From Limimonas halophila (GTDB lineage Bacteria > Pseudomonadota > Alphaproteobacteria > Kiloniellales > Rhodovibrionaceae): DNA of 64,000 nt. Below are positions 31,072 to 44,232 of this stretch, in pieces. The notes under the pieces were generated by a model. That model was not told where the DNA came from. It did no database searches and worked only from the letters and a program-made list of their open reading frames with translations. Numbering within the stretch: position 1 is the stretch's first letter; every line of letters begins with the position of its first letter. The translations under genes and the position numbers were made by a program. Location: the NCBI RefSeq assembly GCF_900100655.1, contig NZ_FNCE01000003.1:152501-216500 (forward strand), in the 5' to 3' direction.

Positions 31072-32640
31072 TCAGCTCACGATCCGCTGCTCCCGGGCCA
31101 TGTCGTAGGCCGCCTTGGGCCCGAGATAGAGCGATGGCAAGAGGACCAGTGAAACCGGGATCGCGGTGATCACGATGAACTGCTGCAGCGCGCTGACCTG
31201 GCCGGCGCCCATGTAGAGCAGGATCGCCGCCATCACGGCCATGGTGATGCCCCAGAACGCGCGCACCGACCGGGCGGGCTGGTCGTGGCCGGAGGCCACC
31301 ATGGAGATGGTGTAGCTCATGGAGTCGCCCGTCGTGGCGACGAAGATGGTGGTGAGGATCAGGATCAGCACCGCCATCACGAGGCCCAACGGCAGCGCCT
31401 GCGCCACGGTCAGCGTCGCCACGTCGAACTGGAAGTTGGTCAGCGCTTCCTTGAGGTCGATGACGCCCTGCATCTGGTAGTAGATGCCCGAGCCGCCGAG
31501 CAGCGTGAACCAGACCGTGGTGGCGACGGGCGCGGCGATGGCCACGGCCACGATCATCTCGCGGATCGTGCGCCCGCGCGAGATGCGCGCCACGAACAGC
31601 GCCATGAGCGGCCCGTAGCCCAGGAACCAGGCGAAGAAGAAGACCGTCCACCACTTCATCCACCAGTCGGGCGCGGTCTGCGCCGTCATCGTGGACGTCT
31701 CGAGGAAGCTGCTGACGTAGGTGCCGAAGCCCTGGAGGTAGCTGTTCAGGAGGAACAGCGTGGGGCCGAAAACGAAGATCACGGCGGCAATGAAAAGCGC
31801 CAGGAAGACGTTCATGCGCGAGAGGAACTGGATGCCGCGGTGGATGCCCGTCAGCGCCGAGGTCACGTAGATGCCGCCCAGCACGACCAGCACCGCGAGC
31901 TGCGAGCCGTAGCTGTCCTCGATGCCGAACAGCACCTCCATGCCGTAGGCCACCTGGGTCGCCAGAAAGCCGATGGGCCCGACCGTCCCGGCGACGACCG
32001 CGATCACGCAGACCGCGTCCACGATGCCGCCGAAGGCGCCGCGCATCACGCGCTCGCCGAACACGGGGAAGAGCAGCGTGCGCGGCTGCAGCGGCTTGCC
32101 GTGGGTGTAGTGCGCGTGCACGAGGACCAGCGAGGTCAGCGAGCCCAGGATCGCCCACGCCAGGAAGCCCCAGTGCGTGAAGGACTGCGCCAGGGCGGCC
32201 TGCACCGCCGCCGCCGTTCCCGTCTCGGCGCCGAAGGCCGGGGGCGATTGTGCGACAAAGTGGTACACCGGCTCGCCCGCGGCGAAGAAGACGCCGCCGC
32301 CCGCCAGCAGCGTGCACAGGATGATGGACACCCACTTGAAGGTGCTCATCTCCGGCTGGTCGAGGTTGCCCATCTTGGCGCTCGCCGCCGGGGAGATCGC
32401 CACCCCGATGGCGATGAAGAAGGTGAGCAGCAGGATCGCCTGGAAGAAGGAGCCGAGATACTTCGCCGTCCAGGTGAAGCCCCCGCTGACCAGCTCGGAG
32501 AGCAGGTTCACGTCGTAGGCCGACAAGGCGAGGAAGGCGATCACAAAGCCGCCACTGATGCCCAGCACCCAAGGGTCGCCAAGACCGGCGTTCATGCCGA
32601 TCCGCTCCTCCGACCCGCGTTCAGCCACATTCTCCGCCAT
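31072..32640 (-). CDS. BCCT-family betaine/carnitine/choline transporter
   Basis: 522 residues, about twelve helices. N-terminal GDPWVLGISGGFVIAFL and the family signature FVARISRGRTIREM are intact. The tryptophan-rich signature of choline/betaine members before it (in BetP, Trp-x-x-x-Trp) reads FFFAWFLGYGP here (about residues 335-345), so two of the usual tryptophans are Phe and Tyr; the cation box is still aromatic but may suit another ligand. It drives uptake with Na+ or H+. It is expressed from its own AT-rich promoter region and ends at a terminator. A LysR gene lies upstream on the same strand. Confidence 0.9.
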   Translation of the reverse strand: MAENVAERGSEERIGMNAGLGDPWVLGISGGFVIAFLALSAYDVNLLSELVSGGFTWTAKYLGSFFQAILLLTFFIAIGVAISPAASAKMGNLDQPEMSTFKWVSIILCTLLAGGGVFFAAGEPVYHFVAQSPPAFGAETGTAAAVQAALAQSFTHWGFLAWAILGSLTSLVLVHAHYTHGKPLQPRTLLFPVFGERVMRGAFGGIVDAVCVIAVVAGTVGPIGFLATQVAYGMEVLFGIEDSYGSQLAVLVVLGGIYVTSALTGIHRGIQFLSRMNVFLALFIAAVIFVFGPTLFLLNSYLQGFGTYVSSFLETSTMTAQTAPDWWMKWWTVFFFAWFLGYGPLMALFVARISRGRTIREMIVAVAIAAPVATTVWFTLLGGSGIYYQMQGVIDLKEALTNFQFDVATLTVAQALPLGLVMAVLILILTTIFVATTGDSMSYTISMVASGHDQPARSVRAFWGITMAVMAAILLYMGAGQVSALQQFIVITAIPVSLVLLPSLYLGPKAAYDMAREQRIVS

Positions 32641-32873
32641 GATGCCGTCCCTGTTCCGTCCGATGTGGTGTGGAGCCGCGCGGCCGGCTGCTGTTCGCCG
32701 GCAGGGCCAATGCGCATGACATCCGCGTGGGGACACCATGTCGCATTATTGTCACGATTAAAAGAAGAGGCGATCTTATAAACAAATCAAAAAAATTAAA
32801 GAAACGCTTAGTTCAGCTTATAAATTGGAAAGCAAAAATGGGCGGATCGACAAGGTCTCCGGGCGGATGCGTC
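32641..32873. promoter_or_regulatory. AT-rich promoter region of the BCCT gene
   Basis: 233 bp between lysR stop and BCCT start. The 32745-32840 part is much richer in A/T than anything nearby, with several A-tracts. It probably holds the BCCT promoter; I see no clear operator or gene. Confidence 0.4.
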
Positions 32874-33800
32874 TCAGGGGGCTCCGGACCCGCCCAACCG
32901 TGCGATCACCATGTCGCGCATGCTTTCCGCAGCTGGCGACAGCGAGCGCCCCTGGCGCGTGATCAGGCATATGTCGCGTGCCAATTCAGGTTCGACCAAG
33001 GGCCGGAAGATCAGGTCGTTTGGGTGATGGTCCGGCATGGCCAGGCGCGGCAACACGCTGATGCCCAGGCCGGCGACCAGCATGCCCTCCAGCGTGGCGA
33101 TGTTGGACACCTCCACCTCCGGCTGGCGCAGGTTGTCGGGCAGGCCGTCCACGGACTGGACCAGCGGCCGGATGCCGGTGTCGTGGCCCAGGCCGAGGAA
33201 GGTGTGGCCGGCCAGCTCGCGCCAGCGCACCGGCCCGGTGGCTTCGGCCAGGGGATGATCGGCGCGGCAGACGAGCCCGAAGGGATCGCGCATGACGGCC
33301 TCGAAGGCGAGGTCGGCGTCCGGCTCCCACATCGACGCCAGGCCGAAGTCGACCTCCTTGCGCGACACGCGGCGTTGCACGCCGCTGGCGTTGGCGTCGT
33401 GCAGGTGCACCGAGATGCCGGGGTAGGTGTCGCGGAACGCCGCCAGGATGTCCGGCATGGCCTTGAGCGCGATCGAGGGCAGCGTGGCGACGCTCACCCG
33501 CCCGCGCCGGCGCTGGGCGACCTCGCGCACATCGGCGATGGCGGATTCGAAATCGTCCAGCAGGCGTTCGGCCGTGGGCAGGAACTCGGTGCCGTTGTCG
33601 GTGAGCATCACGCGCCGGGTAGTGCGGTCGAACAGCCGCACCCCCAGCTCCTCCTCGAACTGATTGATCTGGATGGTCAGCGCCGGCTGCGACAGCGCCA
33701 GCCGCCGCGCCGCGCGCGTGAAGCTGCCCTCGCGCGCGACGGCGACGAAGGCCTGGAGGTGCTTGAGCGTGACATTCATTGCCGGACCGGCACCCTTCAT
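32874..33800 (-). CDS. LysR family transcriptional regulator
   Basis: 308 residues. HTH: LKHLQAFVAVAREGSFTRAARRLALSQPALTIQINQFEEELGVRLFDR. The effector domain has RVSVATLPSIALKAMPDILAAFRDTYPGI, in the CysB/CbbR-like subgroup. It is transcribed away from the aldehyde dehydrogenase operon and towards the BCCT gene, so it probably controls both in response to the pathway substrate. ATG 33800 has GGGGTGG upstream; ATG 33779 is a weaker alternative. Confidence 0.92.
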   Translation of the reverse strand: MKGAGPAMNVTLKHLQAFVAVAREGSFTRAARRLALSQPALTIQINQFEEELGVRLFDRTTRRVMLTDNGTEFLPTAERLLDDFESAIADVREVAQRRRGRVSVATLPSIALKAMPDILAAFRDTYPGISVHLHDANASGVQRRVSRKEVDFGLASMWEPDADLAFEAVMRDPFGLVCRADHPLAEATGPVRWRELAGHTFLGLGHDTGIRPLVQSVDGLPDNLRQPEVEVSNIATLEGMLVAGLGISVLPRLAMPDHHPNDLIFRPLVEPELARDICLITRQGRSLSPAAESMRDMVIARLGGSGAP

Positions 33801-34019
33801 AAGCCACCCCTATCAAACCATGAGACATTTTTAATTAAATGGCCGGACCATTTTCTCTAGCTTATAGGCAGATCGCCGCGGACGCGACCCCGATGTGCCG
33901 CGCGCGAGCCTGCCCATACGGCCCCCGTCCGGATCGTGGACACGTCGATCGGGACCGCACACGCTCGCGCTGCCGCGCACACAGGGGCGCGCTCACAACC
34001 AGCTTCGGGAGGAGCCGCT
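33801..34019. promoter_or_regulatory. Divergent promoter between lysR and the aldehyde dehydrogenase operon
   Basis: 219 bp. An AT-rich palindromic core ATTTTTAATTAAAT is at 33827-33840, flanked by CCAT (33818-33821) and ATGG (33839-33842), making a plausible LysR operator. The ribosome binding site GGGAGGAG is at 34008-34015. An in-frame ATG at 33936 exists, but the added 28 residues show no homology. Confidence 0.45.
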
Positions 34020-35462
34020 TTGACGACCGACGCCCACCCCAACTACATCGCCGGCCGCTGGGCGCCCGCGGGTGATGCGGTGACGGAGAACCACAACCCG
34101 TCCGACCTGGACGACCTCGTGGGCACCTACGCCCAGGCCAGCACGGCCCAGGTCGAGGAAGCCATTGCCGCCGCGAAGCAGGCGTTCCCGACCTGGACCT
34201 CCCTGCTGCCCGAGCAGCGCCAGGCGCCGCTGGAGCGCATCGGCGACGAGCTGATCGCCCGCAAGGACGAGCTCGGCCGCCTGCTCTCCCGCGAGGAGGG
34301 CAAGCCGCTCGCCGAGGGTGTGGGCGAGATCGCGCGCGCCGGGCAGTTCTTCAAGTTCTACGCCGGGGAGACGCTGCGCCTGCACGGCGACTTCACGCAG
34401 TCCGTTCGCCCCGGCGTCGAGGTCGAGGTGCGGCGTGAGTCCCTCGGCGTCGTCGGCATCATCACGCCCTGGAACTTCCCGGCCGCCATCCCGGCGTGGA
34501 AGATCGCCCCCGCGCTGGCCTACGGGAACACCGTGGTGTTCAAGCCGGCCGACCTCGTGCCCGGCACGGCGTGGGCGCTGGCCGAGATCATCTCGCGCGC
34601 GGGCCTGCCGGACGGCGCCTTCAACCTCGTCATGGGCCGGGGCAGCGTGGTCGGCGAGACCATCCTGACCTCGCGCGACGTCGCCGCCGTCACCTTCACC
34701 GGCTCGGCCCAGACGGGCGCGCACGTTGCCCGCCGCTGCGCCGAGACGATGAAGAAGGTGCAGCTGGAGATGGGCGGCAAGAACCCGCTCGTGGTGCTGG
34801 ACGACGCCGACGTAGAGGTCGCCGCCTCGGCCGCGCTCAACGGCTACTCGGGCACGGGGCAGAAGTGCACGGCGTCCTCGCGCCTCGTCGTCACCGAGGG
34901 CATCCACGACCGCTTCGTCGAGGCGCTGACGGAGAAGCTGAACGGCTACACCGTCGGCCACGCGCTCGACGAGAACACCAAGATGGGTCCGGTCGTGGAC
35001 GAGAGCCAGCTGCAGACGGACCTGGACTACATCGAGCTGGGCAAGCAGGAGGGCGCCGAGCTGCACACCGGCGGCCAGCTGCTCAACCGCGAGACGCGCG
35101 GCCACTACCTCTCGCCGGCGCTCTTCACGGGCACGCGCAACGACATGCGCATCAACCGCGAGGAGATCTTCGGCCCGGTCTGCGCCGTCATCAAGGTGAA
35201 GGACTACGAGGAGGCGCTGGCGACGGCCAACGACACCGACTACGGCCTCACCAGCTCCATCTGCACGACCTCGCTGAAGCACGCCAGCCACTTCAAGGCG
35301 AACAGCAAGTCTGGGATCGTGACGGTGAACCTGCCCACGGGCGGCATGGACTACCACGTGCCCTTCGGCGGCATGAAGGCGTCCAGCTACGGCCCGCGCG
35401 AGCAGGGGCAGTACGCCCGCGAGTTCTACACCGTCACCAAGACCACCTACACCAAGCCCTGA
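34020..35462 (+). CDS. Aldehyde dehydrogenase, 2-oxoglutarate semialdehyde dehydrogenase type
   Basis: 480 residues from a TTG start placed just after GGGAGGAG; this gives the family's usual N-terminus NYIAGRWAPAG. Catalytic Cys283 (GTGQKCTASSR) and Glu250 (LEMGGKNP) are present with normal spacing, along with PWNFPAAIPAWK and FTGSAQTG for NAD(P) binding. Its closest remembered type is the semialdehyde dehydrogenase ending hydroxyproline and sugar-acid degradation, forming 2-oxoglutarate. Another aldehyde, for example from a betaine, is possible. First gene of an operon of four; the dipeptidase-like gene begins 9 bp after it. Confidence 0.88.
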   Translation: MTTDAHPNYIAGRWAPAGDAVTENHNPSDLDDLVGTYAQASTAQVEEAIAAAKQAFPTWTSLLPEQRQAPLERIGDELIARKDELGRLLSREEGKPLAEGVGEIARAGQFFKFYAGETLRLHGDFTQSVRPGVEVEVRRESLGVVGIITPWNFPAAIPAWKIAPALAYGNTVVFKPADLVPGTAWALAEIISRAGLPDGAFNLVMGRGSVVGETILTSRDVAAVTFTGSAQTGAHVARRCAETMKKVQLEMGGKNPLVVLDDADVEVAASAALNGYSGTGQKCTASSRLVVTEGIHDRFVEALTEKLNGYTVGHALDENTKMGPVVDESQLQTDLDYIELGKQEGAELHTGGQLLNRETRGHYLSPALFTGTRNDMRINREEIFGPVCAVIKVKDYEEALATANDTDYGLTSSICTTSLKHASHFKANSKSGIVTVNLPTGGMDYHVPFGGMKASSYGPREQGQYAREFYTVTKTTYTKP

Positions 35463-35471
35463 GGCAGCGGC

Positions 35472-36500
35472 ATGGCAGCCACGCAGGCGAGCGGCTCCCA
35501 GACGACCGGGCACCAGCTCAGCGGCCACGTCATCGACGCGCTCCAGTACTCGAACTGGACCCGCCGCCACTTTGAGGACTGGCGGGCCGGCGGCATGACG
35601 GCCGTGGGCGTGACGATCGCGTACCACGAACGCGCGCGCGACACGCTCACCCGGCTGGGCGAATGGAACTGGCGCCTGCGTGAGAACGCGGACCTGATCC
35701 GCCCCATCCGGCGCGGCGGCGACCTGGACGCCGCGCGGGACGAGGGGCGGATCGGCGTCCTGCTGGGCGCGCAGAACTGCTCGCCCATCGACGACGACGT
35801 CGGCCTCGTTCAGGTGATGAACGACGCCGGCCTCAAGGTGATGCAGCTCACCTACAACAACCTCAGCCTCATCGGCGCCGGCTGCGCCGAGCTGGACGAT
35901 CCGGGCATCTCGCGCTTCGGCCGCGAAGTCATCTCGGAGATGAACCGCGTGGGCATGGTCATCGACATGTCCCACTCGGCCGAGCGCACCACCCTGGAAG
36001 CCATCGAGCTGTCCAGCCGCCCCGTGGCGGTGACACACGCCAACCCGCGCTTTTTCCACGACACCCCGCGCAACAAGAGCACCGACGTCCTGCGCGCGCT
36101 GGGCGAAAGCGGCGGGATGTTCGGCTTTTCGCTGTATCCGCCGCACCTCGCGGACGGCGCGCAGACGACGCTGGACACCTTCACCGCGATGGTCGCGCGC
36201 ACTGCCGAGATCGCCGGGACCGGCAACATCGGCATCGGCTCCGACCTGTGCCAGGGCTGGGACGGGCGCACGATCGACTACATGCGCAACGGCCGCTGGC
36301 GCCTGGTGCCCCAGGCCGAGCGCGAGCGCTTCGCCGCCACGCCGTGGCCCGATCAGCCGGCGTGGTTCCAGCGCTCGGCGGACATGCCGAAGCTCGCGGA
36401 CGCGCTGCGCGAGCGCGGCTTCTCCGCGGCCGACGTGGATGGGATCATGGGCGGCAACTGGGCGCGCTACCTGCGCGACGCGCTGGAGCCCACGGGGTAA
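35472..36500 (+). CDS. M19 (renal dipeptidase-like) protein lacking canonical zinc ligands
   Basis: 342 residues of the M19 TIM-barrel family. His168 (DMSHSAERT), His189 (VTHANPR) and Asp258 (GIGSDLCQGWDG) match M19 zinc positions. But the N-terminal HxD ligand motif (usually DGHND) reads GHVIDALQYSNW, and the bridging Glu motif (usually GIEG) reads LLGAQN. A binuclear zinc centre is therefore unlikely as usual. M19-like proteins are also found, as I recall, beside glycine-betaine/dimethylglycine genes in Pseudomonas, suggesting a role in quaternary-amine breakdown. The conserved context with an aldehyde dehydrogenase supports a non-peptidase job. Confidence 0.8.
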   Translation: MAATQASGSQTTGHQLSGHVIDALQYSNWTRRHFEDWRAGGMTAVGVTIAYHERARDTLTRLGEWNWRLRENADLIRPIRRGGDLDAARDEGRIGVLLGAQNCSPIDDDVGLVQVMNDAGLKVMQLTYNNLSLIGAGCAELDDPGISRFGREVISEMNRVGMVIDMSHSAERTTLEAIELSSRPVAVTHANPRFFHDTPRNKSTDVLRALGESGGMFGFSLYPPHLADGAQTTLDTFTAMVARTAEIAGTGNIGIGSDLCQGWDGRTIDYMRNGRWRLVPQAERERFAATPWPDQPAWFQRSADMPKLADALRERGFSAADVDGIMGGNWARYLRDALEPTG

Positions 36501-36595
36501 AAACGACCGGCGGCGGCCCTGGCCGCGCCGACGCCACGCCCGATGTCGAAAGACGACGGAGGCGGTTCACGAAACCAGCGACGGGGAGGTCCGCG

Positions 36596-38374
36596 ATGCC
36601 CACACATGCGCCGGTCCGCGGTTACGAGCAGCGCGTTCGCGACGTGCCGCGCGATCCCCTGCGGCCGCCCGCCGAAGTCATGCGCCTGTCGCGCATGGGC
36701 GCGATGCACGGCACCCGCATCAGCTTCATGCGCACGCTCACCCGCCGCATGGCGCGCGAGGGCTGGCGCATCCAGTGCCAGCGCTTCGACATCGGGGCCG
36801 ACCAGACGGGCGAGGCCGTCTACACCGTCGACACGCCGGACGGCCGCTACAGCTTCGTCGTCTTCGCCCACGACATCCCCGAGGAAGACCGCACCGACCG
36901 TGTGATCGCCGAGCGCTGGGACTACACCTTCGCGCTCACCGACGGCGAACCGGACGAAGACCATCTGGACGACCTGCGCGCCAACGTGCCGCTTCAGGAA
37001 GCTGGGCGCATGCGCCCCGAGGACATCGTCCTCTCGCGCGGCAACAAGAGCACGCGCCTGTTCGCCCACGTCGTGGACGCCCTGGCCGCCGGGCAGCAGC
37101 CGGACCCGGGGAAGGTGGACGAGGTCGGCTACCTCATGCGCACCACGGCCGTCTACGGCAACGGCAAGTTCGGCCTCGCCGACTATGAGCAGGTGCGCCG
37201 GCACACGGCCTTCCGCCAGCCCTTCAGCGCGCAGATGTTCACCGTCTATCTGGCGCGGCTGTTCTCGCTGGATCTGGTCGAGCACGTCGCCCGGCTGCGC
37301 GACCCGGACAACGCGGTCGGGCTGGACCCGCGCCTGCGCCGCGCCTTCGGCGTGGGCAACGCCACGGGCCTGGGCATGGCGCCCTTCCTGGTGAACCACC
37401 CCAAGATCATCCACGGCTGGGCCTGGGCGCGCGAGACCGCGCTGGCGCGCGTCAAGGCCGTGCCCTCTGCGGAGGCGTGGCGGCTGGACCGCTTCCAGCA
37501 ACTCTTCGAGCGCGCGATCACGCATGCCGATCAGTGGCAGACCGCCGACGAACGCCAGATGGCGGACATCCACACGCTGCGCGCCGAGCTGCGCACGCTG
37601 CACGCCGAGCTGTTCCCGGCCGAGGGCGAGAGCATCCTGGCCGCCGACCATCCCTGGCGGCGGCTGGCGCGGACGCTGGCGCAGCGCTTCTCCCTGGAAA
37701 CCCAGGAGATGGTGCACAGCCTGATGATCGAGCCCTACGGCGACCTCGTCGACGAGCTGGAGGACCGGCTCACCTGCGACGACGAGCTGTGGCTCGAACC
37801 GGCGATGCGGCTGTTCACGCTCAAGGATCTGCTGGAGCGGCACTACCGCTGGGCCATCGAGACCGACTACACGGCGGAGGAAAACCAGCACTACTTCTGG
37901 TACCGCGCCGAGGCGAAGGAGGAGCCGCGCATCGGCGAGCGCTGCTGCGAGTCCGGCGCCGAGCGCGAGATGATGATCGGCGTTGGGCGCGAGGCGGCGC
38001 GCCTCCACGCGGCGCTGGCAAAGCTGGACAACGAGTCGCTGCACGAGGCGGTGGCGGCCTTCCTGATGCGGCGGCCGGACCTGCGCGCGATCACCCGCCG
38101 GGTACAAACGATGGCGCACGCGCCCTACGGCGAGATCCGCGACAACCTGCTGGGCGCCGACATCCGCCCCATCGACCTGCTGCGCTTCAAGCTGTCGGTG
38201 TTCGGCGCGGTGCGCTTCGACCCCAAGTCGGATCGCTGGATCCGCATCACGATGTTCAAGGGCGCGCCCCTGCCGGAGGAGCTGACGGGCTGCGACGCCT
38301 GCGGGGCGCCGCCGCACTGCCTGACCTGTCCACCGGATGACTGGGCCTTCCCGGTCGTGCCGGAGGCGCTGTGA
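36596..38374 (+). CDS. Conserved 592-residue protein of unknown function with C-terminal CxxC pair
   Basis: 592 residues, soluble, unrecognised. It is mostly helical by composition, with charged, His- and Arg-rich stretches. A C-terminal cysteine set, Cys566-x2-Cys569-x5-Cys575-x2-Cys578 (CDACGAPPHCLTC), could bind zinc or an iron-sulfur cluster. Another pair is at ERCCESGAERE. It has no signal peptide. ATG 36596 follows GGGGAGG; the longer upstream frame runs through the dipeptidase gene. Its stop overlaps the next start by 4 bp (ATGA). Operon partners suggest a large catabolic or redox enzyme, but no fold is identified. Confidence 0.8.
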   Translation: MPTHAPVRGYEQRVRDVPRDPLRPPAEVMRLSRMGAMHGTRISFMRTLTRRMAREGWRIQCQRFDIGADQTGEAVYTVDTPDGRYSFVVFAHDIPEEDRTDRVIAERWDYTFALTDGEPDEDHLDDLRANVPLQEAGRMRPEDIVLSRGNKSTRLFAHVVDALAAGQQPDPGKVDEVGYLMRTTAVYGNGKFGLADYEQVRRHTAFRQPFSAQMFTVYLARLFSLDLVEHVARLRDPDNAVGLDPRLRRAFGVGNATGLGMAPFLVNHPKIIHGWAWARETALARVKAVPSAEAWRLDRFQQLFERAITHADQWQTADERQMADIHTLRAELRTLHAELFPAEGESILAADHPWRRLARTLAQRFSLETQEMVHSLMIEPYGDLVDELEDRLTCDDELWLEPAMRLFTLKDLLERHYRWAIETDYTAEENQHYFWYRAEAKEEPRIGERCCESGAEREMMIGVGREAARLHAALAKLDNESLHEAVAAFLMRRPDLRAITRRVQTMAHAPYGEIRDNLLGADIRPIDLLRFKLSVFGAVRFDPKSDRWIRITMFKGAPLPEELTGCDACGAPPHCLTCPPDDWAFPVVPEAL

Positions 38375-39096
38375 TGCTGCTGTCGATCAACGAACTGCGC
38401 GGCCGCTACGCGCGCGCCTTCGAGGGCATGGGCTTTCCCGCTGGGCTGGCGCCGGACGCGGCCCGCATCGCCGCCACGCTGGACATCCTGGGCGACGACG
38501 GCCTGAGCCGCGTGCTCGACCGGCTGGACCGCCTGGACGGCGTCAAGCTGCCCGTGCCGGATCTTGCCGTGGACGGCAGCTCGGCGCGCCTGGACGGCCA
38601 CGGCGGCTCGCTGCTTGCGGTCGGCGCGGACGTGCTGGATGTGCTGGACGTTCTCACCCAGCAGCACGGCGAGGCGCGCATCGAGGTGCACGGCTGCCGC
38701 GACGTGGACTTCGTCACCGGGCTCGGCGGGCTGGCCGCCGCGCGCGGGATCGAGGGGGCGCTGCTCGCCAGCCTGGAAGACCGCGAGCGCCTGGTGCGCG
38801 TGGCCCAGCGCCGCGCCGAGGTGCAGGAGGGGCCGCCGGGCACCTTCGCGGGCGTGCCGGCGGACGGGCTGCTGGTGCTGGGCGGGCAGTTCGTGGACAC
38901 GCTCGACGCCAGCGCCTGCACGACCACGCTCGGCTTTGGAGCTTTCGACGAACGCCACGACGACGCCCTGGAAAACGGCGTTCGCGTCGACGACGCGGAT
39001 TGGAAGCGGATCTACGCCCTCGGCGGCCGGCTGCTCGTGCCCGAGATGGGCGACGCCGCCGCCAACGCGGGCGTCGGCGGTGGCACGCCGTTTTAA
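38371..39096 (+). CDS. DUF3726-like protein
   Basis: 241 residues. The start SINELRGRYARAFEGMGFPAGLAPDAARIAATLD resembles the N-terminal pattern I remember for DUF3726; the rest has alternating beta and helix with GGSLLAVGADVLDVL. No catalytic motif is recognised. It overlaps the 592-residue gene by 4 bp, indicating a tight functional partnership. The gene ends 3 bp from the converging photolyase gene. The family call is tentative. Confidence 0.6.
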   Translation: MMLLSINELRGRYARAFEGMGFPAGLAPDAARIAATLDILGDDGLSRVLDRLDRLDGVKLPVPDLAVDGSSARLDGHGGSLLAVGADVLDVLDVLTQQHGEARIEVHGCRDVDFVTGLGGLAAARGIEGALLASLEDRERLVRVAQRRAEVQEGPPGTFAGVPADGLLVLGGQFVDTLDASACTTTLGFGAFDERHDDALENGVRVDDADWKRIYALGGRLLVPEMGDAAANAGVGGGTPF

Positions 39097-39099
39097 ATC

Positions 39100-41520
39100 C
39101 TATTCGATCGGTTCCGTCGCGGCGACGGTGCGGGGTGCTCCGCGCGCCGCGATGTCGGGCTCGCTGGCAAAGACGCGCCCGGCCATCGCCATGCCGGAGA
39201 GCAGGGCGTCGTCGATGCCGCCGCCCAGGCACCATTCCCCGCACGCGCCCACGCCGGCGTCGCCGTCGAAGAGGCACCCCGCGTCCAGCGGCGTTTCCGC
39301 GCGGGCGTAGCGCCAGCGGTGGCCCGTGACCGCGACCGGCTCGGGTGCCTCGACGCGCTGGCGAAAGGCTGCGACCAGCTCGCCTGCCGCCGCGTCCGCA
39401 TCGTCGTCGAGGTGCTCGGCGGACCAGGCCGGATCGCCGTGCAGCACCCAGACCTCTTCGTTCATCTCCCGGCCCGGCTTGGCGCTGTTGCGGATCGCCA
39501 TGCGGGCCGGCCCATTCCCACGCACGACGTCGGGCACCCCGGAAACGGGTGCGGCGAAGCGCGCCATCGCGGTAATGCAGGGCGCGTAGCGCACGCCCCG
39601 CGCGGCCTCGGCCAGCGCCGGACAGGGCGCCAGCAGCTCGGCCGCCTGCGGCGCGGGCACCGCGACGACCACGCGGTCGAACGGGCCGAATACGCCCGCA
39701 TCGGTCGTGAGCGACCAGGCGCCGGCGTCGCGGGTCAAGCGGTCGACGCGCACGCCGCTGCGCACGTCGAGGTCGGCGGCCAGATGCTCGGCCAGGGCGC
39801 GGCTGTGCGGCACCGGGACGTAGCGCCCGTCGTCGCCGGTCAATTCCGGGTCCCAGGGCAGGATGACGCCCTGGTCCAGCCAGCTTTCCACAAAGGGCGC
39901 CAGCCGGGGATCGTCCGCGCGGAACCAGGGAGCGCCGTGGTCGGCGTGAACGTCCGCCCACAGGCGCTTGGCCGCCGTGCGCCCGCCCACGCGCCGGCCC
40001 TTGTCGAGCACCGTGACCGCAACACCCTGGTCGGCCAGCGTGCGCGCGCACATCAAGCCGGCGGGCCCGGCGCCGATGACGGCCACGCGCGGCATCTCGC
40101 CCGCGGGGCGTCGGGTTTGAAGCGCGGCGAACCGTGCGGTGTCCAGGCGCTCGGCGTGGACCTCGGTGCTGCGCGGGCGCACGCGGCCGAAGATGGGCTT
40201 TTCCGGGTCGAAGGGGCGGTCGAAGGCGCCCAGGCACCAGAACAGCCCCGCGTAGGAATTCGGGTCGCCGCCGTCGAGGGCGTAGCGGTTGTTCAGGTCC
40301 ACCAGCATCCGCGCGGCTACGTCCGGCCCTTCCGTCCAGGGCAGCAGGGCCTTGCCCCAGGTCATGCGCACGTTGTTGTGCAGGTAGCCGCGCCGCAGAT
40401 ACCCGGCTTGCGCCGCGTTCCAGAAGGCGTCGTCGGTGCGTCCGCGCGCCAGGGTTTCCCAGACGTAGAGCGCCGGACGCGGGTCCAGGGCGCAGCGGTC
40501 GAGGCTCTCGCGCGCCCAGTCGGGAAGCACGTCGACGGTGTCGTGGTCCGGCGCAAAGTGGGCGAAGCTCCACGCCATCTCCCGCCAGATCAGCAGCTCC
40601 TCCAGGAACTTCTCCGGGCCCTTGCCGCCCTGCGCCGCCGCCTCGCGCGCGAGTTGGGTGGCCGCGATCATGCCGTGGCGCAGATAGGGCGAGAGGTGGC
40701 TGACCGCGCCGTCCTGCAGCGCGTCGTTGCGGCGCGCGGCGTAGCCCGCCAGGCGGTGGTCGCGGAAGGCGGCCCAGCGCGTCTGCGCCGCCGCTTCGCC
40801 GCCGGGGTCGTCGGGCACGGGCGGTACGCTGTGGTCGATCTCGCAGGCCGCCGTCAGCTCGCCCAGATCCCAGGCGTCCAGATCGGTGGGCGTGCGGGGC
40901 AGCGTGCCGGCGTCGGGCGCGACGCGTGGCGCCACCGGCGGGAACTCCGCGTGCAGGCGGTCCGCCCGCTGATCCTTGGTCGCCGACCGGAATTTGTACG
41001 CCCGGTCGAAGGCGCGGCCGACCTGGATCATGGGCACGACGCAACTCGCGTCCACGGCCAGAACTGGCGTCTCCCGCTCCGCTGTCGCCGCCAGGAGCGC
41101 CGAGCGGTCTTCGCGGTAGGACCTTGTCGGCTGGTCGTCGCAGACCACGGCCGCGGCATCGCGGGCGAGGCGGGGCGTGGCCTCCTCGCGCGCGCCCGGC
41201 CGGTGGACGTAGGCTGCCGTGGCGATGCCGCGTTCGCGGATCGTCGCCAGGGCCTCGCGCGCCCCCTCCAGCACGAAGCGGTGGTGGCGGTCGCTGGCGA
41301 AGGGGTAGCGCTCGCTCAGTTCGAACACCGCCAGCACCGGCAGGCCCAGCGCGTTGCCCAGCGCCACTGCCGCGTCGAGCGCCTGGTTTTCGTGGCCGCG
41401 CAGGTTGCCGCTCAGGCTGTACAGGACGTAGGCGCCCCGCGGACCGGGCTCGCCGGCCCGCAGAGCCCGCGTGCGCGAAGCCAGGCGCGGGGGCAGGCGG
41501 TCGATCGGCGCGTCAGGCAT
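39100..41520 (-). CDS. Class II CPD photolyase fused to FAD/NAD(P)-dependent oxidoreductase
   Basis: 806 residues in two parts. Residues 1 to about 475 are a class II photolyase: an N-terminal Rossmann-like region (YVLYSLSGNLRGHENQAL), then FLEELLIWREMAWSFAHF and WNAAQAGYLRRGYLHNNVRMTWGKALLPWT, which line the FAD and lesion site. From about 480 a second protein begins with VAVIGAGPAGLMCARTL, a dinucleotide-binding loop, and DKGRRVGGRTAAKR as in RenL-like amine oxidases, ending GGGIDDALLSGMAMAGRVFASEPDI. The single uninterrupted frame covers both. The first part repairs UV dimers with light; the second might feed it reduced FAD, but that is inference. Confidence 0.9.
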   Translation of the reverse strand: MPDAPIDRLPPRLASRTRALRAGEPGPRGAYVLYSLSGNLRGHENQALDAAVALGNALGLPVLAVFELSERYPFASDRHHRFVLEGAREALATIRERGIATAAYVHRPGAREEATPRLARDAAAVVCDDQPTRSYREDRSALLAATAERETPVLAVDASCVVPMIQVGRAFDRAYKFRSATKDQRADRLHAEFPPVAPRVAPDAGTLPRTPTDLDAWDLGELTAACEIDHSVPPVPDDPGGEAAAQTRWAAFRDHRLAGYAARRNDALQDGAVSHLSPYLRHGMIAATQLAREAAAQGGKGPEKFLEELLIWREMAWSFAHFAPDHDTVDVLPDWARESLDRCALDPRPALYVWETLARGRTDDAFWNAAQAGYLRRGYLHNNVRMTWGKALLPWTEGPDVAARMLVDLNNRYALDGGDPNSYAGLFWCLGAFDRPFDPEKPIFGRVRPRSTEVHAERLDTARFAALQTRRPAGEMPRVAVIGAGPAGLMCARTLADQGVAVTVLDKGRRVGGRTAAKRLWADVHADHGAPWFRADDPRLAPFVESWLDQGVILPWDPELTGDDGRYVPVPHSRALAEHLAADLDVRSGVRVDRLTRDAGAWSLTTDAGVFGPFDRVVVAVPAPQAAELLAPCPALAEAARGVRYAPCITAMARFAAPVSGVPDVVRGNGPARMAIRNSAKPGREMNEEVWVLHGDPAWSAEHLDDDADAAAGELVAAFRQRVEAPEPVAVTGHRWRYARAETPLDAGCLFDGDAGVGACGEWCLGGGIDDALLSGMAMAGRVFASEPDIAARGAPRTVAATEPIE

Positions 41521-41719
41521 CCGACTCGCCCGCGCTGCCGTCCCCGGCGGCACTCGGCGGTGTGGGGGCCGGCGGTGGCACGTCGAGGGGATCGGCGCGG
41601 CCATCGCGGTCCGTGGCGTAGGCGCGGCGCCAGCCCTCAACGGCCACGGCGGCGAGTCCAGCGACCGCCACCCCGGCCGCGGCGTGGACGGCGGCGTTCG
41701 CGGCGAGCCGGATCAACAT
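41513..41719 (-). CDS. Small membrane protein, 68 residues
   Basis: Starts at ATG 41719 with a GGGGGAAA ribosome site. One hydrophobic helix (LAANAAVHAAAGVAVAGLAAVAVEG), then a polar, proline-rich tail. No known family. Its start and the previous stop share TGATG, and its stop overlaps the photolyase start region by 8 bp, so it sits in the photolyase operon. Confidence 0.55.
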   Translation of the reverse strand: MLIRLAANAAVHAAAGVAVAGLAAVAVEGWRRAYATDRDGRADPLDVPPPAPTPPSAAGDGSAGESDA

Positions 41720-41945: not shown

Positions 41946-43067
41946 TCAGCAGGCCGTCACGGTCATACTGCCCGTGGCCGTCAGCGTGACGGCGGTGTCG
42001 AAGGGTGTGCTCTCGCGGGCGAGCGTGTCGGCCAGCCAGCGCCGGTCCGCCGCACTCGGGCGGGCCAGCTGCATGCGGCGAAGCTGAAAGGGGACGAGCG
42101 TGCACGCGCGCACGCTGCCGTCGGCCACGGCGATCTCGGGCAGCACCAGCAGCACGAGGTCGTCGCGGTAGCTGCCGGGCGTGGCGATGCCCTCGTAGTC
42201 GGTGAGGAAGTCGCCGGACCCGTAGAGGATCAGGCCGTCACGGTGGCGCTCCACCGCCTTGGCGTGGTGGGATGAATGGCCGTGGACGACCGAGACGCCG
42301 CCCCGCGCGATCAGCGCGCGGGCAAAGGTCCGCTGATCGGCCGGCACGTCGAAACCCCAGTTGCCGCCCCAGTGGACCGTCACCACGACGACGTCGCCCG
42401 GCCGCCGCCACGCGGCGATGTGCCGGCAGAGCGCATCCGCGCTTGTGTCCGAGAGGTCGGGCAGGCGGTTCACGCCGGGCCGGTCGGGGCGCGCGGCCCA
42501 ATGCGCCGGCACACCGCTGGAGCCGTGGGCGCAGGCGAAGACGAGCACCCGCCCGCCGTCCGCGCGCGGCACCACGGCGGGCACGGCCGCTGCGGCGCTG
42601 TCCCGGCCCGAGCCGCAGCGCGCGATGCCGGCGGCGTCGAGCGTGTCCAGGGTGTCCGTGAGGCCGCGCTCGCCCCAGTCAAGGACGTGGTTGTTGGCAA
42701 GCGTCGCCACGTCCAGCCCGAAAGCGGTCAGCACCGGCGCGTTGGCCGGGTTCATGCGGTAGGTGATGCCCTTGGGCGCCGCGTCCTCGCTGCGTGTTAC
42801 GGCCGTTTCCAGGTTGGCGATGCGCACGGCCGGCTGCACGCGCTCCAGATCCGCAAGCGCCTCGCCCCAGACGTAGCGCCAGTCCACCGGCTTGGGGACC
42901 GGTCCGTTGGCGGCTTCCGCCAGGTCCACGTACGCCCGCGCGTCGGTTACGACCGGCTCGTGGCGGTGCGGCGGCGCCGGGTACGGCAGGATCTGATCGA
43001 TGCCGCGGCCGGTCATGACGTCGCCGCACAGGGCGAGGGTGATGGTCGCCGGGGCTGTTTCGGGCAT
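41946..43067 (-). CDS. CapA/PgsA-like metallophosphatase-fold protein
   Basis: 373 residues, one CapA domain of the calcineurin-like phosphoesterase superfamily. Metal-site motifs: LALCGDVMTGRGID, ANLETAVT, LANNHVLDWGERGL, TVHWGGNWGF, and VHGHSSHHAKAVE. Members include poly-gamma-glutamate biosynthesis proteins, but many are isolated and of unknown substrate; no capsule genes accompany it. No signal peptide is seen from ATG 43067, which follows CGGAGG. It diverges from the PhaC-like hydrolase. Confidence 0.88.
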   Translation of the reverse strand: MPETAPATITLALCGDVMTGRGIDQILPYPAPPHRHEPVVTDARAYVDLAEAANGPVPKPVDWRYVWGEALADLERVQPAVRIANLETAVTRSEDAAPKGITYRMNPANAPVLTAFGLDVATLANNHVLDWGERGLTDTLDTLDAAGIARCGSGRDSAAAAVPAVVPRADGGRVLVFACAHGSSGVPAHWAARPDRPGVNRLPDLSDTSADALCRHIAAWRRPGDVVVVTVHWGGNWGFDVPADQRTFARALIARGGVSVVHGHSSHHAKAVERHRDGLILYGSGDFLTDYEGIATPGSYRDDLVLLVLPEIAVADGSVRACTLVPFQLRRMQLARPSAADRRWLADTLARESTPFDTAVTLTATGSMTVTAC

Positions 43068-43215
43068 TCCGGCGCCTCCGCGGGATAGGGGAAGCATCTT
43101 GCCCATCGCGGGCGCGGGGCACATTCACCCGCCGCAAAGGACGACCTTCAAGAGGGGAAGCGTGCCCGCTCGGGATGTGCGCTACGCTGGCCCGGACCGG
43201 GCGCCGGGGTCAGCC

Positions 43216-44232
43216 ATGTACGAGCTTGCGGATGCCATGCGCCGCGCGCAGGCGGCCATGCTGGATGCGGCCGGCGACCGCCCGGCGGGACACCCCTATC
43301 GCGTCGCGGCCTCGGGCGAGCGCTGGCGCTTGCGCGCGTACGGTCAAGGGGCCGGGCCGCCGGTGCTGATCGTCGCCGCGCCCATCAAGCGGCCCGACAT
43401 CTGGGACCTGACGCCCACCCGCAGCGTGGTTGGCGCGTGCCTGCGCGGGGGCCTGGACGTGCATCTGCTGGCATGGGCCGCCCCGGCGCCGCGCGATTCC
43501 GGCGCGACGCTGGCGGCCTATGCGGATGCGGGCATCGGCGAGGCGGTGGCGGCTGTGCGGCGGGCGACGGGCGGGCGTGCGCCGGTGCTGATGGGGCATT
43601 CCCTGGGCGGCACGCTGGCGGCGATCTTCGCGGCGGCCCACGCTGACCGCCTGGCCGGGCTGGTGCTGCTGGATGCGCCGCTGTGCTTCGCGCCCGGCAG
43701 CAGCCGCTTCCGCGACGCCCTGGTGGCGATGGCGCCCCGCCACCCCGACAGCGACGGCATCGTGCCGGGGTCGCTGCTGTCGCACCTGAGCGCGCTCGCC
43801 GCGCCGGAAACCTTCGTCTGGGCGCGCGCGTTGGACGGCCTGCTGCACCCGGAAGCGCACGATCTTCACACCCGCATCGAGCGCTGGGCCCTGGCCGAGG
43901 TGGCGCTGCCCGCACCGTTGCTGGGCGAGATGCTGACGGCCCTCTACCGCGAGGATCGGTTCTGTCGGGGCACGCTCGACCTCGGCGGACCCACCGTCGG
44001 GCCGGCCGCGCTGCGCTGTCCCGCCTTCGTCGTCGGCAACGCGGCGGATGCCGTGGCGCCGCCCCAAGCGATCGACCCCTTCGTCGCGCGCATGCCCGGC
44101 GCCCAGGTGCGCCGCATCGAGATCCCCGGCGAACCCGGCGTCAGCCTCCAGCACCTCGTCCCGCTCCTGGGCGAACGCGCCCATGCCGAGTTATGGCCCG
44201 AGATCACGGCCTGGATCGCGGCGCGTGGGTAA
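43216..44232 (+). CDS. Alpha/beta hydrolase of the PHA-synthase (PhaC) clan with Ser nucleophile
   Basis: 338 residues. The pattern LIVAAPIKRPDIWDLTPTRSVVGACLRGGLDVHLLAW copies the PhaC opening. The nucleophile elbow is MGHSLGGTLAA: Ser, where PHA synthases have Cys. The acid lies in VVGNAADAVAPP. The His motif usually near GGH-GV is replaced by PGEPGVSLQHL, so the catalytic His is uncertain. It is probably an esterase or depolymerase-like hydrolase, not a polymerase. ATG 43216 was taken since homology begins right after it. It stops 3 bp from the converging E1 gene. Confidence 0.8.
   Translation: MYELADAMRRAQAAMLDAAGDRPAGHPYRVAASGERWRLRAYGQGAGPPVLIVAAPIKRPDIWDLTPTRSVVGACLRGGLDVHLLAWAAPAPRDSGATLAAYADAGIGEAVAAVRRATGGRAPVLMGHSLGGTLAAIFAAAHADRLAGLVLLDAPLCFAPGSSRFRDALVAMAPRHPDSDGIVPGSLLSHLSALAAPETFVWARALDGLLHPEAHDLHTRIERWALAEVALPAPLLGEMLTALYREDRFCRGTLDLGGPTVGPAALRCPAFVVGNAADAVAPPQAIDPFVARMPGAQVRRIEIPGEPGVSLQHLVPLLGERAHAELWPEITAWIAARG

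Follow-up and report, generated by a model that had tools for sequence, protein, structure and literature searches.

A 592-residue protein paired with DUF3726 in a putative homarine operon of Limimonas halophila, and its possible role in pyridinium ring opening

The gene for a 592-residue protein lies within a 64,000-nt stretch of the Limimonas halophila genome (contig NZ_FNCE01000003.1, positions 152,501-216,500), referred to here as the window. It stands third in a run of genes on the forward strand that encode an aldehyde dehydrogenase, a protein of the Peptidase_M19 family, the 592-aa protein and a DUF3726 protein, with a divergent LysR-type regulator and a betaine-type transporter on the other side (Table 1). 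The TGA of the 592-aa gene (38372-38374) shares a single base with the ATG of DUF3726 (38374) in the sequence TGATG, so the overlap described in an earlier sequence-only reading of this locus is real. The true start of the aldehyde dehydrogenase may lie downstream of the one listed. Beyond the run, the reverse strand encodes a composite protein of 846 aa (39100-41640): residues 56-504 match the photolyase model TIGR00591 below its cut-off, and residues 518-823 or so resemble an FAD amine oxidase. It is followed by a PGA_cap (capsule synthesis CapA-type) protein (41946-43124, reverse strand), whose 5' end overlaps an opposite-strand frame for a PHA-synthase-like hydrolase (43000-44232) that probably starts further downstream.

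Table 1. Features of the 592-aa gene and its neighbours in the window
Feature	Position	Strand	Basis or remark
BCCT-family (betaine/carnitine/choline) transporter	31072..32739	-	Pfam
LysR-type regulator, divergent	32874..33800	-	Pfam
Aldehyde dehydrogenase	33936..35462	+	Pfam; best profile 2,5-dioxovalerate dehydrogenase, below cut-off
Peptidase_M19-family protein	35472..36500	+	Pfam E 6.6e-72, above gathering score; best PDB match 2i5g
Shine-Dalgarno-like GGAGG	36585..36589	+	6 nt 5' of the ATG of the 592-aa protein
592-aa protein gene	36596..38374	+	ORF call and translation; exactly 592 aa
CxxC-x5-CxxC, residues 566-578	38291..38329	+	Within an insertion specific to the L. halophila genome
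DUF3726 protein (Pfam PF12525)	38374..39096	+	Pfam 27.9 bits against a cut-off of 22.1; gene adjacency

The 592-aa protein matches no family in Pfam, NCBIfam or the PDB sequences, and a profile built from 28 members of its own family likewise finds no match there. The earlier statement that it cannot be placed in a named family therefore holds for these three collections. Similarities to a Cas9 bridge helix, a hydroxycinnamoyl transferase, a kinetochore protein and coiled coils were rejected as chance matches. AlphaFold2, run with two input sequences each, gave a pLDDT of 39 for the 592-aa protein and 33 for DUF3726. The description of the protein as an orphan, in the sense of having no relatives, proved wrong. 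A single-sequence scan of genome contigs returned one relative. Homologues that share 32-56% identity across most of their length are found in 26 of 58 related genomes, in 33 of 240 genomes sampled from the class, and in 26 of 349 sampled from the phylum, other classes of the same phylum included. The family is also present on 168 plasmid records, from Sinorhizobium, Phaeobacter, Aminobacter, Ruegeria, Vibrio, Caballeronia and others; a search of viral contigs found no relative. A tree of 82 sequences, which results from a short search and has some long branches, separates a large main clade that holds the window protein from a small divergent clade that includes the Sinorhizobium meliloti and Bosea copies.

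In the loci of this divergent clade (S. meliloti pSymB and a Bosea plasmid; L048, L049, L050 and L168), the 592-aa homologue, about 32% identical, is accompanied by a DUF3726-like protein and an M19 protein. To these are added a polyamine-type ABC transporter and an IclR regulator; the S. meliloti clusters also encode a class III aminotransferase. This context suggests related modules for other substrates, and the divergent clusters are probably the same module acting on another compound.

The family forms an obligate pair with DUF3726. A DUF3726 frame lies directly 3' of the 592-aa gene in 81 of 85 distinct loci; in three of the exceptions (L040, L087, L132) the gene is too near the end of the contig or locus, and in the fourth (L039) DUF3726 follows M19. 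In 31 of the 81, the two frames seem to overlap by 4 bases, judged from where the HMM hit starts. The two proteins are fused in two loci, L042 (Mesorhizobium, one protein of 815 aa) and L089. Moreover, in the sample of 240 genomes, all 27 with a Pfam-detectable DUF3726 are also carriers of the 592-aa family, and their DUF3726 matches adjoin the 592-aa gene. Since adjacency, fusion and the nesting of DUF3726 genomes within the carriers all agree, there is strong indirect evidence that the two proteins would act as the subunits of one enzyme. The complex that had been proposed from the overlap of the two frames is thus backed, indirectly, by more than that overlap.

A literature search returned no paper on DUF3726. 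Its profile aligns with that of Ldh_2, the family of type 2 malate/lactate dehydrogenases, over 122 columns (hhalign probability 67%, E 5e-5), colinear with the N-terminal ~130 residues; three unrelated control profiles gave probabilities of at most 0.5%. Additionally, the Pfam Ldh_2 model matches the S. meliloti copy of DUF3726 with an E of 0.025. The N-terminal half of DUF3726 therefore resembles Ldh_2 to a moderate degree, although the protein is shorter (about 200-250 aa) and the SHG motif, which holds the catalytic His of Ldh_2, is absent from the alignment, where it falls in a gap. Because this motif is missing, DUF3726 may be a derived, non-canonical relative of Ldh_2.

The pair belongs to a conserved operon. 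The order in relatives is LysR (divergent), aldehyde dehydrogenase, M19, in some cases BCCT, 592-aa protein, DUF3726 and an Ldh oxidoreductase. Transporters of the ProXWV, Liv or BCCT type frequently accompany these genes, and a cluster that resembles tmaR-mgdABCD often adjoins them. All conserved genes except Ldh are found in the window. Some loci lack a nearby M19, aldehyde dehydrogenase or Ldh; in L037 and L038, paralogous LysR-592-aa-DUF3726 units stand with none of the three nearby. Two streamlined genomes of 1.2 and 1.4 Mb (L090, L091) retain M19, the 592-aa gene and DUF3726, one with a transporter, aldehyde dehydrogenase and Ldh alongside, the other in the vicinity of Sox/Mgd-type genes. 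The Ldh of the operon belongs to Ldh_2 and is DpkA-like, its best PDB match being delta1-piperideine-2-carboxylate reductase (1wtj, E 6e-51). The M19 protein belongs to the family of renal dipeptidase and of the 2i5g amidohydrolase, but three of its five metal ligands are replaced in the operon subfamily: H20 by Q (39 of 43 sequences), D22 by A, C or S, and E125 by Q (41 of 43). H198, H219, R230 and D288 are retained, of which only H198 and H219 are ligands of the dinuclear site. Judged by these residues, the operon M19 is not a canonical dinuclear dipeptidase; it may work with a single metal or be altered in some other way.

Genes annotated as 'sarcosine oxidase' adjoin the operon in several relatives (L030, L034, L043-L045, L052). 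In a SoxB tree, these operon-adjacent copies group at 100/100 support with copies that lie beside gmaS and mgsABC-like genes, and a GlxA/AraC-type regulator flanks their clusters. TmaR (SPO1584), an AraC-type regulator of Ruegeria pomeroyi, is encoded upstream of mgdABCD (SPO1585-1588), the genes for N-methylglutamate dehydrogenase, Mgd (PMC13390433). On the strength of the SoxB grouping and of the tmaR-like flanking regulator, the operon-adjacent genes are probably mgdABCD. PMC13390433 states, with reference to Ferrer-Gonzalez and colleagues (2026, Nat Microbiol 11:1531, 10.1038/s41564-026-02313-7; its ref. 55), that Mgd has been reported to participate in the catabolism of homarine (N-methylpicolinic acid).

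In L. halophila itself, the sole Ldh_2 gene of the genome lies on another contig, where it adjoins, and is convergent with, a SoxBDAG-type cluster (L053, 5633-11940). It is 46-70% identical to the operon Ldhs, with one exception at 39%, and the operon thus appears to be split over two contigs. The genome holds gmaS/mgs-like genes and only two SoxB copies; the one beside Ldh is not part of the well-supported Mgd group, and the other belongs to a second, widespread clade. The Ldh-adjacent Sox cluster would be Mgd by elimination, given the gmaS/mgs-like genes and the two copies available. The link to Mgd is therefore one of direct neighbours in relatives, and an indirect one, through the Ldh gene, in L. 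halophila.

A conserved operon with betaine-type transporters, its link to Mgd and the homarine role reported for Mgd together point to homarine as the substrate. This reading, in which the operon would convert homarine (N-methylpicolinate) to N-methylglutamate, draws on genome context and one citation and is held with good confidence. A homarine operon of six genes, homABCDER, has reportedly been described by Ferrer-Gonzalez and colleagues in 2026; with a regulator and five genes, the operon discussed here is presumably of the same size. The two would also be alike in their association with Mgd and their wide spread in Proteobacteria. L. halophila differs in having Ldh and the Sox/Mgd-type genes on another contig and in a Cys insertion of its own.

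A route can be written in which each gene is used once. Homarine would enter the cell through a betaine-type transporter (BCCT in L. halophila). In the first step, the 592-aa protein and DUF3726 would open the ring, homarine with O2 and NAD(P)H giving 2-(N-methylformamido)-5-oxopent-2-enoate. The aldehyde dehydrogenase would then oxidize this C5 aldehyde to the acid, an assignment made because its best profile, 2,5-dioxovalerate dehydrogenase, is likewise that of a C5 semialdehyde enzyme. The M19-family protein would strip the N-formyl group as formate, although the loss of three of five metal ligands makes this deformylase assignment uncertain. The DpkA-like Ldh, encoded elsewhere in the L. 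halophila genome, would reduce the enamine or imine to N-methylglutamate, in keeping with its closest solved relative. Finally, MgdABCD would convert N-methylglutamate to glutamate, with a C1 unit passing to tetrahydrofolate. One ring carbon is lost between homarine and N-methylglutamate, and the four-step scheme is atom-balanced.

The logic of this route resembles that of trigonelline degradation in Acinetobacter baylyi. There, TgnAB, a flavin reductase and a luciferase-type monooxygenase, uses O2 to open an N-methylpyridinium ring; the product is an N-methylformamide aldehyde, and aldehyde oxidation and amide hydrolysis follow. The pair does not belong to these families, as a Pfam search found no luciferase-like or flavin-reductase domain in the 592-aa protein or DUF3726. 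The first step is given to the pair by elimination, within a balanced scheme, and because the pair persists where other genes of the operon are missing; the assignment is evenly poised between right and wrong. In an alignment of 28 members, the 592-aa family has 41 invariant positions, many of them Arg and Trp or Tyr and none Cys or His. We infer that these Arg and aromatic positions would fit a carboxylated quaternary-ammonium substrate such as an N-methylpyridinium.

Another possibility is that homarine or a similar betaine is indeed converted to N-methylglutamate but that the pair acts later, for example in C-N hydrolysis or in the rearrangement of a ring-opened intermediate. The ring-opening oxygenase that is needed could then be encoded elsewhere. 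The 592-aa protein shows no recognisable oxygenase, flavin or NAD(P)H motif, and the pair as a whole is without a recognisable oxygenase or cofactor motif, as this explanation would have it. The non-canonical M19 partner also means that roles could be divided differently, and clusters of the S. meliloti type hold the pair and M19 without an adjacent Ldh. Nevertheless, inspection of conserved operon neighbourhoods brought no recognisable ring-opening oxygenase to light, and the only dioxygenase of Phaeobacter is encoded outside the conserved block. Moreover, the pair and M19 remain even where the other genes are absent, as expected for a substrate-activating step. A later role for the pair is rather unlikely.

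It is unlikely, too, that the substrate of the operon is a different N-methylated betaine or a cyclic amino acid, for instance proline betaine or trigonelline, with N-methylglutamate or a semialdehyde passing into Mgd. Neither the betaine-type transporters nor the Mgd link is specific to homarine, and the other substrates suggested for the divergent S. meliloti/Bosea clusters speak for some breadth of use. However, Mgd combined with a DpkA-like reductase, an amidohydrolase and a dehydrogenase of the C5 semialdehyde type fits the atom-balanced homarine route, and PMC13390433 notes a reported role of Mgd in homarine catabolism.

The C-terminal cysteines of the window protein had been read as a sign of zinc or an iron-sulfur centre. 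They are present as described (C566-x2-C569-x5-C575-x2-C578, with H574), and when the protein was shuffled 20,000 times, just one shuffled sequence held any CxxC-x1..20-CxxC arrangement. Among 83 distinct relatives with a complete C-terminus, a CxxC within the last 70 residues is found in the window protein alone, where the four Cys sit in a roughly 10-residue insertion confined to the L. halophila copy. The closest relative, from the same taxonomic family and 65% identical over the C-terminal part, has PEDLHDSEVDPDDWAFPVLLR opposite the window's PEELTGCDACGAPPHCLTCPPDDWAFPV and no motif. The site was therefore dropped as a family-defining feature, being absent from 82 of 83 distinct relatives in a family with no invariant Cys or His, and the alignments leave no central role for metal binding in the family. 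Even with a motif in the window protein that exceeds chance, it is highly improbable that function centres on a Cys4 site holding zinc or an iron-sulfur cluster. The metal reading thus fails as a family feature and is not supported as the basis of function, although the L. halophila protein itself may bind metal.

Returning to homarine, the 592-aa protein is best described as part of a (probably published) homarine operon, and its own enzymatic activity is possibly new. Taken as a whole, the picture of an obligate pair in a homarine operon, with the pair as the candidate ring-opener, stands about as much chance of being right as of being wrong. More tentatively, and with somewhat less than an even chance, the pair could represent a new enzyme class that opens N-methylpyridinium rings with O2 and NAD(P)H and is unrelated in sequence to known ring-cleaving oxygenases. 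Such a class would combine a catalytic subunit without conserved Cys or His with a partner derived from Ldh_2, and its divergent rhizobial copies would act on other N-heterocycles.

Homarine is a ubiquitous marine metabolite and an osmolyte of phytoplankton (PMC13390433, PMC9723723). If the proposed role is true, a pair of proteins that has no name would carry out the first committed step of bacterial homarine breakdown, by a chemistry that current family models do not predict. Its range would span Vibrio, relatives of Roseobacter and streamlined genomes of 1.2-1.4 Mb. Two families now listed as 'hypothetical', the 592-aa family and DUF3726, would gain a testable function and become targets for mutants and in vitro assays.
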